Shown here: one piece after another, positions 27,700-58,478 of the stretch
Position numbering within the stretch: the stretch's first letter is position 1
Layout of the letters: each line of letters starts with the position of its first letter
NCBI GenBank assembly: GCA_030529225.1
Contig: JAUMXH010000008.1
Coordinates: forward strand, 1 to 64,000
Reading direction: 5' to 3'
DNA: 64,000 nt
From: Bacillota bacterium
GTDB taxonomy: Bacteria; Bacillota; Clostridia; Peptostreptococcales; Acidaminobacteraceae
Position numbers and translations under genes: made by a program
Notes under the pieces: generated by a model
Database searches by the model: none
Seen by the model: only the letters and a program-made list of their open reading frames with translations
Told to the model about the DNA's origin: nothing

Positions 27700-29964
27700 A
27701 TGCAAGATAAGAAATTAGAAAGCATTGAACTTGGCGTTTCCGGAATGACCTGTGCCGCATGTTCGTCTTCGATTGAGAGGGTCGTCAGCAAGATGCCCGG
27801 GGTCATGGACGTTTCCGTCAACCTGATGGCGGAGAAGACCAGCCTGACTTACGATGCGGAAGTGGTTTCCCTGGAGGAAATCAGAGCCAAAATCAAAAAA
27901 ATCGGGTTTGATACCGGAGAAGTGAGGGAGCAGGCCTACCTTGACAGCTCGGAAGAGATCAGGAAAAGATGGCGCAATTTCAGCGTTGCGGCCCTGTTTT
28001 CAGCCTTGATTATGATCGTGTCTATGGGACACATGGTCGGGATGCCCCTGCCTGAACTCATAGATCCGCACCATAATGCCTTTCACTTTGCGCTGTTTCA
28101 GATGATTTTAACCATTCCCGTCCTATGGATCGGCAGGGAATTTTTCATAAACGGCTTCAAACTGCTATTTCGATCGCCGAACATGGACTCGCTGATTGCG
28201 GTGGGCGCCGGCGCGGCCTTTGTATTCAGCTTGTACTCGACTTTTGCGATTCCGGCGGATCCGGCCAACGGCATGGTTTACGCGATGGAACTCTACTACG
28301 AGGGTGCGGCGATGATACTCACGTTGGTTATGCTCGGAAAAAATCTGGAGTTCAGATCCAAGGAAAATACCAAGGAGGCAATCAGGCGCCTGGTAAATCT
28401 GCGTCCGAGCACCGCCTTTTTGGTGAATGAGGATGGAACTGAGAGCGAGGTCAGCGTTTCCAGGCTGAAGGTCGGGGACGTGATTCGCGTCAGACCGGGC
28501 GAAAACATCAGCGTAGACGGCATCATCGTCCGCGGAGCGAGCGGGATCGATGAGAGCATGATCAGCGGGGAGAGCCTTCCGGTCGACAAGGCGGAAGGGG
28601 ACAAGGTCATTTGCGGAACCATGAATATGAGTTCCATGATAGATGTAAAAATGGACACGCCGAACGCATCGAGCGTGCTAAGCAAGATTATCAAACTCGT
28701 CGAGAGCGCCCAGGATAAGAAGGCGCCGATCGCGAGGATAGCCGACAAGGTCGCGGCCTACTTTGTGCCGGCGGTCATGGCCATCGCCACGGTGAGCGGC
28801 CTGCTCTGGTACTTTGTCGGAGGAAATACGGAAATTGCGATTCGCGTCTTCGTCTCGGTCATGGTCATCGCCTGCCCGTGTGCACTCGGACTTGCGACCC
28901 CGACGGCCATCATGGTGGCGAGCGGAAAGGCGGCGGACTTCGGGATCTTTATCAAGAGTGCCGAAGCCCTTGAAAACGCGAACAAAACTAAGAATTTGCT
29001 CCTGGATAAGACGGGGACCATCACCGAGGGCAGACCTCGCGTGGAATCGGTCTTCATCGAAACGGGCATAGATGAAACGAGCTTTGGGAATTTGGTCTAT
29101 ACGGCGGAATCCGTATCCAAGCATCCGCTCTCGGTCGCGATTATCGACTACCTTACCGAAAGGAGCGGCCAAGCCAAGTTTAGCGCCCTTGACCTAAAGG
29201 AGTCGCAGGAAATCAGCGGGCGCGGAATTAAGGCCGAAAGCTCGGACGGGCACGTCATCCTCTGCGGTAATGAGAACCTCCTGGAGGAGCAGGGCGTGAA
29301 GAGACCCGAGTCGGCGGACTTTCAAAGTCGCTTGGAAGAGGCCGGAAAAGGTGCTTCCAGCTTGGTTCACATCGCGATAGACGGAAGCTATGCGGGCTTC
29401 TTTGAACTGCGGGACAAGATAAAAGAGTCGAGCGTCAGAGCGATTCGGGAACTCAAAGAGATGGGGGTTCGGGTTCTGATGCTGACCGGGGATAACGAGT
29501 CGAGCGCAAGGCACATCGCCGAGCTCGCGGGAATCGAAGAATACAGGGCTCACTGCCTGCCGAAGGATAAGGTGGATGAGATCCGAAACGCGAAGGAAAC
29601 CGGACTCACCGCGATGGTGGGCGACGGAATCAACGACGCTCCGGCGCTTGCGACCGCCGATATCGGCTTTGCGATCGGGGCGGGAACGGATGTTGCGATA
29701 GAGAGTGCGGACATCGTTCTGATGAAGGACAATTTGGAAGACATCGTGACGGCGATCAGGCTGAGCGGAGCGACCATTAAGAATATCAAGCAAAACCTCT
29801 TTTGGGCGTTCTTCTACAACGTGCTCGGCATTCCGATTGCGGCGGGGCTCCTGTACGCCTTTGGCGGGCTGCTCTTAAATCCGATGATTGCAGCGGCGGC
29901 GATGAGCTTATCGAGCGTGTCTGTCGTTACGAATGCCTTGCGGCTTAGAAGCTTTGGAAAGTGA
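27700..29964 (+). CDS. copA: Copper-exporting P-type ATPase
   Basis: 754-residue P1B-1 ATPase. One N-terminal HMA domain with GMTCAAC (Cys18, Cys21) is followed by eight membrane helices. The Cu+ transport motif CPC is at residues 392-394, the phosphorylated Asp436 is in DKTGT, then SKHPLSVAI (HP motif) and GDGINDAPAL. The helix-8 YN and MxxSS elements (YNVLGIP, AMSLSSVSVV) support Cu+ rather than Zn2+/Cd2+. AAGGAGGAAC precedes ATG 27700. No CopY/CsoR gene is nearby. Downstream come two tiny membrane proteins and a selenocysteine HMA protein, probably one operon. Confidence 0.94.
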   Translation: MQDKKLESIELGVSGMTCAACSSSIERVVSKMPGVMDVSVNLMAEKTSLTYDAEVVSLEEIRAKIKKIGFDTGEVREQAYLDSSEEIRKRWRNFSVAALFSALIMIVSMGHMVGMPLPELIDPHHNAFHFALFQMILTIPVLWIGREFFINGFKLLFRSPNMDSLIAVGAGAAFVFSLYSTFAIPADPANGMVYAMELYYEGAAMILTLVMLGKNLEFRSKENTKEAIRRLVNLRPSTAFLVNEDGTESEVSVSRLKVGDVIRVRPGENISVDGIIVRGASGIDESMISGESLPVDKAEGDKVICGTMNMSSMIDVKMDTPNASSVLSKIIKLVESAQDKKAPIARIADKVAAYFVPAVMAIATVSGLLWYFVGGNTEIAIRVFVSVMVIACPCALGLATPTAIMVASGKAADFGIFIKSAEALENANKTKNLLLDKTGTITEGRPRVESVFIETGIDETSFGNLVYTAESVSKHPLSVAIIDYLTERSGQAKFSALDLKESQEISGRGIKAESSDGHVILCGNENLLEEQGVKRPESADFQSRLEEAGKGASSLVHIAIDGSYAGFFELRDKIKESSVRAIRELKEMGVRVLMLTGDNESSARHIAELAGIEEYRAHCLPKDKVDEIRNAKETGLTAMVGDGINDAPALATADIGFAIGAGTDVAIESADIVLMKDNLEDIVTAIRLSGATIKNIKQNLFWAFFYNVLGIPIAAGLLYAFGGLLLNPMIAAAAMSLSSVSVVTNALRLRSFGK

Positions 29965-29972
29965 GGTAGGAT

Positions 29973-30077
29973 ATGAGATTTATTCTTAGAGTGATAAAAA
30001 ACTTTATTATCGCGACCCTTCTGCTCACGGGTGCGATTGTAGGAGGCGTGCTCGTTCTTGTAAAAAGGAGGCACTAA
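29973..30077 (+). CDS. Small membrane protein 1 of the copA cluster (34 aa)
   Basis: A single hydrophobic helix (residues ~11-30, FIIATLLLTGAIVGGVLVLV) is flanked by Arg/Lys at both ends and a KRRH tail. It starts 8 nt after copA; GAGGTAGG overlaps the gap at a good distance from ATG 29973. It ends only 4 nt before the next small gene. No family recognised; a regulator or small subunit of CopA is a guess from position only. Confidence 0.6.
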   Translation: MRFILRVIKNFIIATLLLTGAIVGGVLVLVKRRH

Positions 30078-30081
30078 GATT

Positions 30082-30180
30082 ATGTTTTTAAACTTTGCGC
30101 TGTTTATCGGCCTCGGTGTGGTGGCGGTCTTGGTCGTCATGGTCGTGGCGGCATTGCTTACCGGCAAGGGAAAAAAGTAG
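30082..30180 (+). CDS. Small membrane protein 2 of the copA cluster (32 aa)
   Basis: One helix covering residues ~4-26 (FALFIGLGVVAVLVVMVVAA) and a basic end TGKGKK. AAGGAGG lies about 11 nt before ATG 30082, inside the previous gene's end. Unlike the first small protein it has no basic N-terminus. Tight spacing with the first argues that both are really translated. Function unknown. Confidence 0.6.
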   Translation: MFLNFALFIGLGVVAVLVVMVVAALLTGKGKK

Positions 30181-30257
30181 GGCGTGTGAAGGGTCCGGAA
30201 ACGGACGAATGTAATCAGCGGCGGCAGCCTCTGCCGACCGGAAAAGGAGAAGATGCT

Positions 30258-30467
30258 ATGGAAACAACACTAAAAATCGGCGGAATGCATTGAGGCTCTT
30301 GCAAGAGAAGGCTGGAAGGGTTTTTCGGCATGGTTGAGGGCATCAAGGAGGCCAAGGTAGATGTGAAAGCGGGAATCGCAACGATCGTGAGTGAAGCGGA
30401 GCTCGATTTGAACTACCTGAAAGAAGAAATCGAGGACATGGGATTCGACTTCCTCGGCAAAGAATAA
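30258..30467 (+). CDS. Selenocysteine-containing HMA (CopZ-like) metal-binding protein
   Basis: 69 residues if the in-frame UGA at 30291-30293 is read as selenocysteine. The product then begins METTLKIGGMH-U-GSCK: the HMA ligand motif GMxCxxC with Sec12 replacing the first Cys and Cys15 kept. The rest (VEGIKEAKVDVKAGIAT, then LKEEIEDMGFDF) is an ordinary HMA fold to its stop, which shows the frame is used on both sides of the UGA. A SECIS-like hairpin lies 17 nt after the UGA, and tRNA-Sec is at 58382. GGAGA precedes ATG 30258. Likely partner: CopA, three genes upstream, as a copper (or other soft-metal) chaperone. The alternative is a nonsense mutation. Confidence 0.82.
30311..30329 (+). promoter_or_regulatory. 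Bacterial SECIS-like element
   Basis: GCTGGAA (30311-30317) pairs with TTTCGGC (30323-30329), including G-U pairs, around a 5-nt loop GGGTT. The loop begins with G, and its first base is 25 nt from the end of the UGA codon. This fits the known bacterial pattern of a small hairpin inside the coding region with an apical G some 16-37 nt downstream. Confidence 0.65.
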
Positions 30468-30488
30468 GCTTTGAATAAGAACTTGCAA

Positions 30489-30518
30489 GCGGACCTGTCG
30501 CGAACAGGTTCGCTTTTT
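30489..30518 (+). terminator. Terminator of the copA-Sec-HMA operon
   Basis: GCGGACCTGT pairs with ACAGGTTCGC (one G-U), followed by five Ts. Confidence 0.88.
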
Positions 30519-30592
30519 GACGGTTATAGCGGAACGGAGAAGCCGAATAAAAATAGAATTATCGCATAAGAATTCGGCAGTAAGGAGATCTA

Positions 30593-33229
30593 ATGAGTAA
30601 AAAATCAAAGGTATTGGCATTGGTGTTGACATCGGCACTCGGGCTGGCTTCTTGGCAGGGCCTGCATGCCGACGACACCCAAGGGCACTGGGCGCAGAAA
30701 ATCATCGAGGAGATGAAGGGTAAGGGCATCATCAGCGGCTATGAGGACGGCACATTCAAGCCGGACGGAGCCTTGACCCGGGCGGAATTTGTAAAAATCA
30801 TCAACCGCGCCTTCGGATTCACGGGAGAGTCGGATCAGACCTTTACGGACGTCAGCCCGGAGGACTGGTTCGCAAAAGAGGTCGCGATCGCCTTTGCGAA
30901 CGGTTATTTAAAAGGCTTCCCGGACGGCAGTTTTCAGCCGCATGCACAGATTAGCCGCGCGGAAGTGGCGGTAATCATGGCGAGAATCCTCAAAGTGGAC
31001 GAGGATCCCGCTTCTGCCGATCAATTCACCGATGCCGACAGCATTCCGAGCTGGGCGAAGGGAAGCATAGGTGCCTTGACTAAGGCGGGCTACCTGAAGG
31101 GTTACGAGGACGGAAGCTTCGGCGCGACGAAGAAGATGACCCGCTCGGAGTCTTTGGCGGCGATCAAAGATGCTCCTCGTGATTATGCCGAGAAGCAAGA
31201 AGAAAACACAAAAAAGGAAGACAAAAAGAAATCAAACGAGAAGAAACCGAAAGACCAAGCAAAAAAGCAGGACGGTTCAAGAAGTTCCGGCGGTTCGAGC
31301 GGCGGCTCGAGCTCCGGACAATCGGAAGCTCCGGCAGATAAAATGATTGAGTCTATTTCTTTAAGTTCCGACCAAGCTTCCGGCTTTGATCTTTCTGTGG
31401 AGGCAGCAGAAGTAACTGTTCATCCGGTCTACCGGCCGAGTGACTCTAAGATGCAAGATAGAGGCGTAGAATGGAACTTGACACAAGCCGGAGACACGGT
31501 AACGATTTTAAGACAGGATGATCAATCGATTACGCTAAAGGCACTCGATAACGGCAAGTATGAATTGCGTGCGGCTTTAAAATCGAACCCGTCGATCACG
31601 AGCATGGCTTCCGGAACCGTCAGCAATCAGCTTGTAGGCCTGGAAGGTGATATCGGAACGGCAGGGAATCGGGAGATTACCGGTCTTGATTCCGGAAAGG
31701 CTTATGTGCTGAAAACGGATGAGCAATATTGGTCGGTAGATGCGAACGGAAAAATCGGCGCATCGTTTGATGGCGAAGAAAAGGCGAAGCTTTTTTCAAG
31801 CAACTTAAATGGGGGCGTGAATAAAATTCGGGGTTTGAGCAATGCCAAGACATATCGGGTTATCGATGCGAGCGCGGCAAGTTCCGACATAAAAGCGAAA
31901 GTGGAAGCTTATGTGAGCCTCGATCTTGAAATTTTGACTTTAAAGAATTTTGAAGCGTTTGATTCACTGGGGCAGTCATTGTATGTGGCATTAACGCAAG
32001 AGATTCAGCGTTTGGAACAGAAAAAAGCCGGGTTGGATCAGATAGACCCGCAAACCGATCCGCAATTGGCAGAGAAAAAAGCTGCCTTGGAAGCAAAAAT
32101 TGTCGATTTGAAAAACGTAAACGAAACAAAGTTTACCCCGAAAAAAGTATCGTTTGACCAAAAAATAGCAAGATTGCGAGCGGAACTTGCCGAAAAGAAA
32201 CAGGAAATCGAGCGGGAACTGGCAAAAATTACCGGAAAAGTAGAACCTGCCGGCGCGATTGAAATCGTGAACGTCATTCAAAGCAACAAAGATGCCATTT
32301 CTGAAGAAGATTGGAACAAAATTGCGAATACAAAGAAGTTTACCGAACTGATTTTTGACTTGGCAAAGGATGCCGAGCATCAGAACAAAGTGCTTCGTTT
32401 TTCCGACAAAGGGGAACTCAGCCTGAGTGCATCAGCGGATCAGGTTACCTGGAATCTGTTGAAAGAAAAATCGGGCACATATGAATCTGTCGTGAGCGGA
32501 AACAGTCCGGCAAATGCGATTCCCGCTCAGATTCATACGATGAGAAACCGGGGTGTCGGAACTTACAAGGTGACGGTTTCCGTGTCGTATCAACATTTGA
32601 AGGACAGAGTCTTTGAATCGGTGAGCAAGGAAGTGAAGTTGTTGCAGAACAATTTGGGTTCCTTGTCTCTGGATCGCGACTTTCAAGTCATACCTCAGCC
32701 GAGTTCGGAGAAGATTCGCTTTGATTGGAACAACGGCATTTTGGAGTGGGATGCGATCGAACATGCGACTTCTTATGATATCAAGGCGGAGGTGGCCGGG
32801 CTATCACAGGAAGGAACGATCGGCGGCGAGTTTTTAGAGCCGAAAGATTTAAAGCAGCCTTATGACAATGCGGAAAACGAGTTTTCAAAGAGCCTGCTTC
32901 CAAGACCGAATAACAGATGGTATGATTTGAACGACAAGGATTCTTCAAGGGTTTTTGTAGCAGTCGGTCTGAGCGAAAATAAAATCAGCCTGGATCGATT
33001 TGTTCCATATATCGGAAATTTTTTTAATCCTGAAGAGAATTATAACGCACAAGAATACAGAAGCGCTTTTAAATTGTGGATTATTCCGAGAAATGAAAAC
33101 AGTCTTTATATCAACAATCAGTCCAAATTTGTCGGAAACGGCGGTTACAATCAAGAACAGTCGAACGTGTTTATTGAAGGTTTTAAATTCTCCGATTTAA
33201 TGCACAAATTCGGGGTCATTCAGCCATAA
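30593..33229 (+). CDS. SLH-domain cell-surface protein
   Basis: 878 residues, exported: signal peptide 1-~26 ending GLHA. Three S-layer-homology domains (about residues 28-80, 85-140 and 148-190) with the repeated pattern GYEDGTFKP/RAEF, GFPDGSFQP/RAEV and GYEDGSFG/RSES. These anchor proteins to pyruvylated wall polymers. Then a Lys/Glu-rich stretch (~197-222), a Gly/Ser linker, Ig-like beta-rich parts, and a charged coiled coil (about 465-545). The C-terminal 250 residues are unlike anything I recognise. An adhesin or S-layer-associated role is an inference. Confidence 0.85.
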   Translation: MSKKSKVLALVLTSALGLASWQGLHADDTQGHWAQKIIEEMKGKGIISGYEDGTFKPDGALTRAEFVKIINRAFGFTGESDQTFTDVSPEDWFAKEVAIAFANGYLKGFPDGSFQPHAQISRAEVAVIMARILKVDEDPASADQFTDADSIPSWAKGSIGALTKAGYLKGYEDGSFGATKKMTRSESLAAIKDAPRDYAEKQEENTKKEDKKKSNEKKPKDQAKKQDGSRSSGGSSGGSSSGQSEAPADKMIESISLSSDQASGFDLSVEAAEVTVHPVYRPSDSKMQDRGVEWNLTQAGDTVTILRQDDQSITLKALDNGKYELRAALKSNPSITSMASGTVSNQLVGLEGDIGTAGNREITGLDSGKAYVLKTDEQYWSVDANGKIGASFDGEEKAKLFSSNLNGGVNKIRGLSNAKTYRVIDASAASSDIKAKVEAYVSLDLEILTLKNFEAFDSLGQSLYVALTQEIQRLEQKKAGLDQIDPQTDPQLAEKKAALEAKIVDLKNVNETKFTPKKVSFDQKIARLRAELAEKKQEIERELAKITGKVEPAGAIEIVNVIQSNKDAISEEDWNKIANTKKFTELIFDLAKDAEHQNKVLRFSDKGELSLSASADQVTWNLLKEKSGTYESVVSGNSPANAIPAQIHTMRNRGVGTYKVTVSVSYQHLKDRVFESVSKEVKLLQNNLGSLSLDRDFQVIPQPSSEKIRFDWNNGILEWDAIEHATSYDIKAEVAGLSQEGTIGGEFLEPKDLKQPYDNAENEFSKSLLPRPNNRWYDLNDKDSSRVFVAVGLSENKISLDRFVPYIGNFFNPEENYNAQEYRSAFKLWIIPRNENSLYINNQSKFVGNGGYNQEQSNVFIEGFKFSDLMHKFGVIQP

Positions 33230-58381: not shown

Positions 58382-58478
58382 TGGCGGGAATAGGTGGGAA
58401 TCGAACCCACCCAAGCCGCTCTTAACGACTCATACCGGTTTTGAAGACCGGAGGGCACACCAGAACCCATCTACTCCC
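58382..58478 (-). tRNA. selC: tRNA-Sec (TCA)
   Basis: 97-nt class II tRNA. Its 8-bp acceptor stem pairs GGGAGTAG with CTATTCCC, its anticodon loop CTTCAAA gives UCA, the variable arm is long (AGTCG/CGGCT stem), T-loop TTCGATT, discriminator G and encoded CCA. The 8-bp acceptor with UCA anticodon is diagnostic. It shows that the organism decodes UGA as selenocysteine. Confidence 0.96.

Follow-up and report, generated by a model that had tools for sequence, protein, structure and literature searches.

Selenocysteine (Sec) is already known in HMA-containing ATPases, where it forms a UxxC motif (COG2217/TIGR01525; for example ABB15669.1; PMC9312934, PMC13188914), and Sec CopA-type ATPases from 25 organisms were tallied in 2016 (PMC5029168). 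The first-pass annotation of the gene described here, copZ-U, noted that Sec in HMA domains had been predicted earlier in bacteria, which is correct, and a Sec-HMA domain is accordingly not new in itself (PMC5029168). As in copZ-U, the first ligand Cys of CxxC is Sec in these pumps and their hosts have Sec machinery; however, their Sec domain lies inside the pump, whereas copZ-U encodes a free-standing protein of 69 aa and its neighbouring pump has Cys only. A Sec MerP has also been reported from marine metagenomes (PMC2398784). Two further families invite comparison: the ‘UxxU metal-binding (seleno)protein’ NF041115, which appears together with a ‘putative mercuric reductase’, and the ‘MerT/CopZ fusion-like heavy metal transport selenoprotein’ NF045683. 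The first resembles copZ-U as a small HMA-type protein with Sec at a ligand position, but has two Sec (UxxU) where copZ-U has one (UxxC), and copZ-U scores 26.6 bits against its cut-off of 95. The second similarly has a CopZ-type domain in a selenoprotein, but joins it to a MerT part in a fusion 235 positions long, and is matched, weakly (33.7 versus 375 bits), only by the Peptococcaceae homologue described below and not by copZ-U.

CopZ itself (Bacillus subtilis type NF033795; 2qif, 6ff2, 1cpz) shares with copZ-U the fold, the length, the GMxCxxC loop and, in relatives, a gene directly behind copA; the difference lies in the loop, which is CxHC, with His, in CopZ and UGSC, with Sec as the first ligand and Ser in place of His, in copZ-U. 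In contrast, the selenoproteins named ‘(2Fe-2S)-binding protein, copper chaperone CopZ family’ (cd10141) have a BFD-like Fe–S domain and no HMA domain, and have the name alone in common with copZ-U. Laboratory Sec variants of human CCS, in which selenium was detected spectroscopically as a Cu(I) ligand according to work cited in PMC6235853, differ from copZ-U in being engineered rather than natural and in their domain context. No entry for a free-standing UxxC CopZ was found in the selenoprotein reviews consulted, and the protein may already be catalogued elsewhere.

In the window (the whole 64,000-nt stretch of DNA analysed), copZ-U occupies 30258–30467 on the forward strand, from its start at 30258 to a TAA stop at 30465–30467, with a Shine–Dalgarno sequence (AGGAG, 30245–30249, forward strand) 8 nt 5′ of the ATG. 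It had been noticed as a CopZ-like ORF broken solely by an in-frame UGA at the first ligand Cys, and the ORF, the Pfam HMA match and the alignment agree on this point. Specifically, the UGA (codon 12, 30291–30293, forward strand) is the sole defect in an otherwise intact reading frame, and by sequence and alignment it takes the place of the first metal ligand in GMxCxxC, where the aligned column is otherwise invariantly the ligand Cys. Read through, the product is METTLKIGGMHUGSCKRRLEGFFGMVEGIKEAKVDVKAGIATIVSEAELDLNYLKEEIEDMGFDFLGKE, a 69-aa HMA copper-chaperone-type protein with a single HMA domain (Pfam HMA, E=1.1e-12, residues 4–64). The AlphaFold2 model (mean pLDDT 91.3) shows the order beta-alpha-beta-beta-alpha-beta, finds its best solved matches in copper-binding HMA domains and chaperones (6a71, 2qif and 6ff2 among them), and compares with CopZ 6ff2 at TM 0.86/0.89. 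The ligand loop, GMHUGSC, keeps the second Cys (Cys15) and has Sec as its first ligand if the UGA is decoded. We call the protein CopZ-type rather than a member of the NF033795 subgroup, because it scores 46.2 bits against that model, below the cut-off of 91; NF033795 is an ‘exception’ model that covers a named CopZ subgroup.

Standard annotation would cut copZ-U to 11 residues or substitute an antisense ORF for it. The latter, a 122-aa frame that overlaps copZ-U on the reverse strand (30270–30638 of the window), is one that gene finders could call instead. A leader peptide followed by reinitiation at the ATG at 30330 was considered and rejected, as that ATG has no ribosome-binding site and the metal loop would be lost.

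The gene lies downstream of, and is thus genetically associated with, copA (27700–29964, forward strand), which was identified by Pfam, TIGRFAM and motifs as a P1B-type heavy-metal ATPase that has a single HMA domain, at its N-terminus (Pfam E1-E2_ATPase 8e-52, HMA 2.7e-17). The HMA motif of this pump is GMTCAAC, with both Cys present; the protein is above the cut-off for both TIGR01525 and TIGR01511 (Cu), and it carries the motifs CPC, YN and MSLSS, which we take to indicate Cu(I) specificity. Between copA and copZ-U are two single-span mini membrane ORFs predicted from sequence on the forward strand, one of 34 aa (29973–30077) and one of 32 aa (30082–30180), neither of which has a Pfam match or a convincing homologue in the relative loci that were fetched. 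This setting of copA plus two mini membrane ORFs had been described in the first-pass annotation, and its copA part carries more weight than was claimed for it, a Cys copZ straight after copA being the usual arrangement in relatives. There, Cys CopZs of 64–71 aa begin 9–176 nt after copA; the closest of these proteins, from G009, is 42% identical to copZ-U and has the loop GMSCGHC, and its gene begins 22 nt after the copA of that genome. Searching the entire source genome with Pfam HMA found no more than two HMA domains, that of copZ-U itself and the Cys domain at the N-terminus of CopA, and copZ-U is the only CopZ of the genome. In an HMA tree it groups with free-standing CopZs and not with the Sec domains of CopA, the tree having few columns and copZ-U a long branch. 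By comparison of these loci, copZ-U has probably replaced the syntenic Cys CopZ of its relatives. Directly 3′ of the gene is a terminator-like hairpin (GCGAACAGGTTCGC followed by T5; 30500–30518, forward strand), which is suggestive only, because the region contains six such sites where 3.4 are expected.

A protein search within the same family returned free-standing homologues of copZ-U that all have Cys, so that pattern scans for UGA were required. Three genome sets, 394 from the order, 391 from the class and 398 from the phylum, were searched with the DNA pattern GMxU[AG]xC, and GTDB contigs with a narrower one; matches were translated and then filtered by HMM, which left 46 Sec-HMA domains, 42 of them in CopA-type ATPases and four free-standing, all with UxxC. 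A reversed-pattern control gave about six times fewer hits than the real pattern in the order scan, and the pattern was found in none of the viral contigs searched. The 42 pump domains are most simply taken to be of the same kind as the known Sec CopA ATPases. The free-standing proteins are copZ-U, L211, L196 and L197, the last three from Bacillota unrelated to the source organism. L211 is encoded by a monocistronic gene in a Defluviitaleaceae MAG whose genome has selB, and its loop, GMHUGSCKR, is identical to that of copZ-U; L196 and L197 come from two Peptococcaceae-type MAGs and have the loop GMTUGSCK in a gene order of fur, secCopZ, trxB, selA and selB. At L227:641-5150 (G951) and L228 (G999) the free-standing Sec-HMA gene leads an apparent operon that continues with trxB, selA and selB, and fur lies upstream; a Sec protein is here encoded alongside the Sec machinery. 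A search for homologues with UGA or Cys at codon 12 had been suggested at the outset, and homologues of both kinds align at that codon. HMA domains with UGA at this codon occur in 44 genomes, which, set against the reversed-pattern control, is beyond chance, and selB is above the cut-off in each of the 44 sampled genomes with Sec-HMA versus 31 of the 36 comparison genomes; the five selB-less genomes tested contained no Sec-HMA domain.

The source genome (an assembly of 1.74 Mb in 37 contigs, 95% complete) has the corresponding machinery. A tRNA-Sec gene with anticodon TCA, the presence of which had been asserted for the window, is found at 58382–58478 on the reverse strand (ARAGORN; Rfam RF01852, 71.4 bits), and selA, selB and selD, which had been proposed as a check, are all present outside the window and above curated cut-offs: selA (571 bits) adjoins selB (373.5 bits) on contig C17, and selD (393 bits) is on contig C23 (G000:C23:3886-4809, L160). 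UGA decoding is in use elsewhere in the genome, because selD carries an in-frame UGA of its own in the classical place (AAGUAAK). A scan by eye of the rest of the window for further UGA-interrupted genes found none like a known selenoprotein among the candidates listed; genes under longer ORFs escape such a scan, as copZ-U itself did.

A hairpin with an apical G had been placed 17–36 nt after the UGA, and this position is close to that of the candidate bSECIS hairpin GCUGGAAG-GGU-UUUUCGGC (30311–30329, forward strand), which has eight pairs, three of them G–U, and a 3-nt apical loop, GGU, whose first base is G and which begins 26 nt after the UGA. It agrees with the published bSECIS model in the form given by PMC13188914, namely a stem of 4–16 bp and a loop of 3–9 nt with G in the first two positions, 16–37 nt after the UGA. 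A lone hairpin carries little weight, and this one is not decisive, because its P against shuffles is 0.03 (mononucleotide) to 0.10 (approximate dinucleotide shuffle); judged from this gene, a function as bSECIS is suggested. The hairpin of L196/L197 in the two MAGs was no better than shuffles. For the Sec HMA genes as a group, the enrichment is strong: uninterrupted stems of at least six pairs in the proper position after the UGA occur in 83% of 46 Sec versus 22% of 90 Cys HMA domains, and in 72% of 18 Sec versus 24% of 54 Cys domains when each 65%-identity cluster is counted as one row (p=9e-5). Folding energies of Sec and Cys HMA genes differ in the same direction (p=8e-6, without clustering).

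We consider it probable that copZ-U is a Sec copper chaperone (UxxC), the only CopZ of its genome, which replaced a Cys CopZ and serves the adjacent CopA. The product is very probably made with Sec for one of the two copper-ligand Cys. SelA, SelB, SelD and tRNA-Sec would insert Sec at the UGA (30291–30293), with the hairpin just downstream acting as bSECIS; Cu(I) would be held by the selenium of residue 12 and the sulfur of Cys15, that is, by one selenolate and one thiolate, and would then pass from copZ-U to the HMA domain at the N-terminus of CopA, the product of the gene just upstream. We infer Sec incorporation, Cu(I) binding, transfer to CopA and a benefit of selenium over sulfur alike, and the shift in Cu(I) affinity and redox behaviour that is predicted from Sec is chemically reasonable.

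A Cu(I) chaperone feeding CopA is the most likely role of copZ-U, and its main rival is a thiol/selenol redox role, in which the U-x-x-C would act as a selenol/thiol switch, with thioredoxin reductase as its reductant, and copper handling would be secondary. UxxC is common to many Sec oxidoreductases (table in PMC13188914), and the CxHC of CopZ becomes UGSC in the Sec forms. Moreover, the Peptococcaceae-type free-standing gene lies 54 nt before trxB, which is followed by selA and selB, and has fur upstream; Sec-HMA proteins are thus not always in a copper setting, because this homologue sits with trxB, selA and selB and not with copA. However, copZ-U preserves the HMA fold wholly, as it does the GMxCxxC loop apart from the UGA at the first ligand, and occupies, as sole CopZ, the place of copZ behind copA, and the majority of Sec-HMA domains belong to CopA-type pumps, so that we regard a mainly redox function as rather unlikely. 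Less likely again is a selenoprotein that serves a soft metal other than Cu (Hg, Ag or Cd). A selenolate is very soft, and the related Sec-HMA families NF041115 and NF045683 carry annotations for mercuric or heavy-metal transport (PMC13188914), but the adjoining ATPase has YN/MSLSS and obtains its best scores with copper-translocating models (TIGR01511, 577 bits), ZntA/Cd models scoring less, and no mer genes were seen beside copA and copZ-U; we give this reading a small chance. A nonsense mutation, an assembly or sequencing error or a decaying pseudogene, in keeping with a genus represented by a single genome and with nearest family members that carry Cys, is rejected as highly improbable, because the UGA stands exactly at the ligand codon, recurs there in L211, L196, L197 and 42 CopA domains, in all cases as UxxC and in selB-positive genomes of the sample, and interrupts an ORF that is otherwise intact and has a good ribosome-binding site.

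The Sec copper chaperones that we favour differ from CopZ by more than one residue. The free-standing Cys CopZs of the data set have CxHC in 31 of 35 cases, CxNC in the other four and CxSC in none, and all four free-standing Sec-HMA proteins have UGSC, the pattern that found three of these four having excluded His at that position. A scan with GMxUxHC, run over the 394 genomes of the order only and with UxNC outside its pattern, gave 21 hits and no HMA domain among them, and because of this the Sec forms are not merely CopZ with Cys changed to Sec. It is plausible that the low pKa of a selenolate makes an adjacent His unnecessary; we found no relevant open literature on the pKa of CopZ His15/Cys13, so the His-to-Ser argument is one that we infer.

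More tentatively, the free-standing chaperones may have exchanged CxHC for UGSC on more than one occasion, selenolate taking over from a His-tuned Cys, and copper efflux may have become selenium-dependent, a combination that we hold to be possible yet doubtful. Dependence of copper efflux on the selenium supply, if true, would arise because only an 11-residue stub is made without Sec and there is no other CopZ; it would tie copper homeostasis directly to that of selenium at the genetic level. The ligands of metallochaperones are regarded as a fixed pair of thiolates. A natural selenolate–thiolate CopZ, together with the Cys CopZ that relatives encode at this locus, would offer a clean pair for the effects of selenium on affinity, transfer rate, pKa, and oxidation and repair in metal trafficking, and selenium would be a spectroscopic handle for copper transfer to CopA.

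The HMA tree needs about 11 Cys/Sec changes, of which the starred branches force only two. In G014, a genome of the same family as the source genome, CopA ends in a C-terminal Sec-HMA domain (GMSUGSC), which the tree places as sister to the free-standing Cys CopZ encoded next to this pump (GMSCSHC; support 100/100); there have therefore been several Cys/Sec switches in the copper system. The G014 pair itself (L074:2516 region) looks like a recent duplication with one Sec and one Cys copy. In the tree, copZ-U and L211 pair as two long branches over 69 columns, a grouping that may be false. Two further loci stand out among the Sec-HMA domains. On the contig of L194 (G1144:C193), a GMTUASC domain is accompanied by a second HMA-like frame (GVDUPEC), possibly another Sec-HMA ATPase, and at L101:3539-3780 (G164) a CopA carries two nearly identical tandem Sec-HMA domains, with GMNUGSC twice and thus two UGA codons in one gene.
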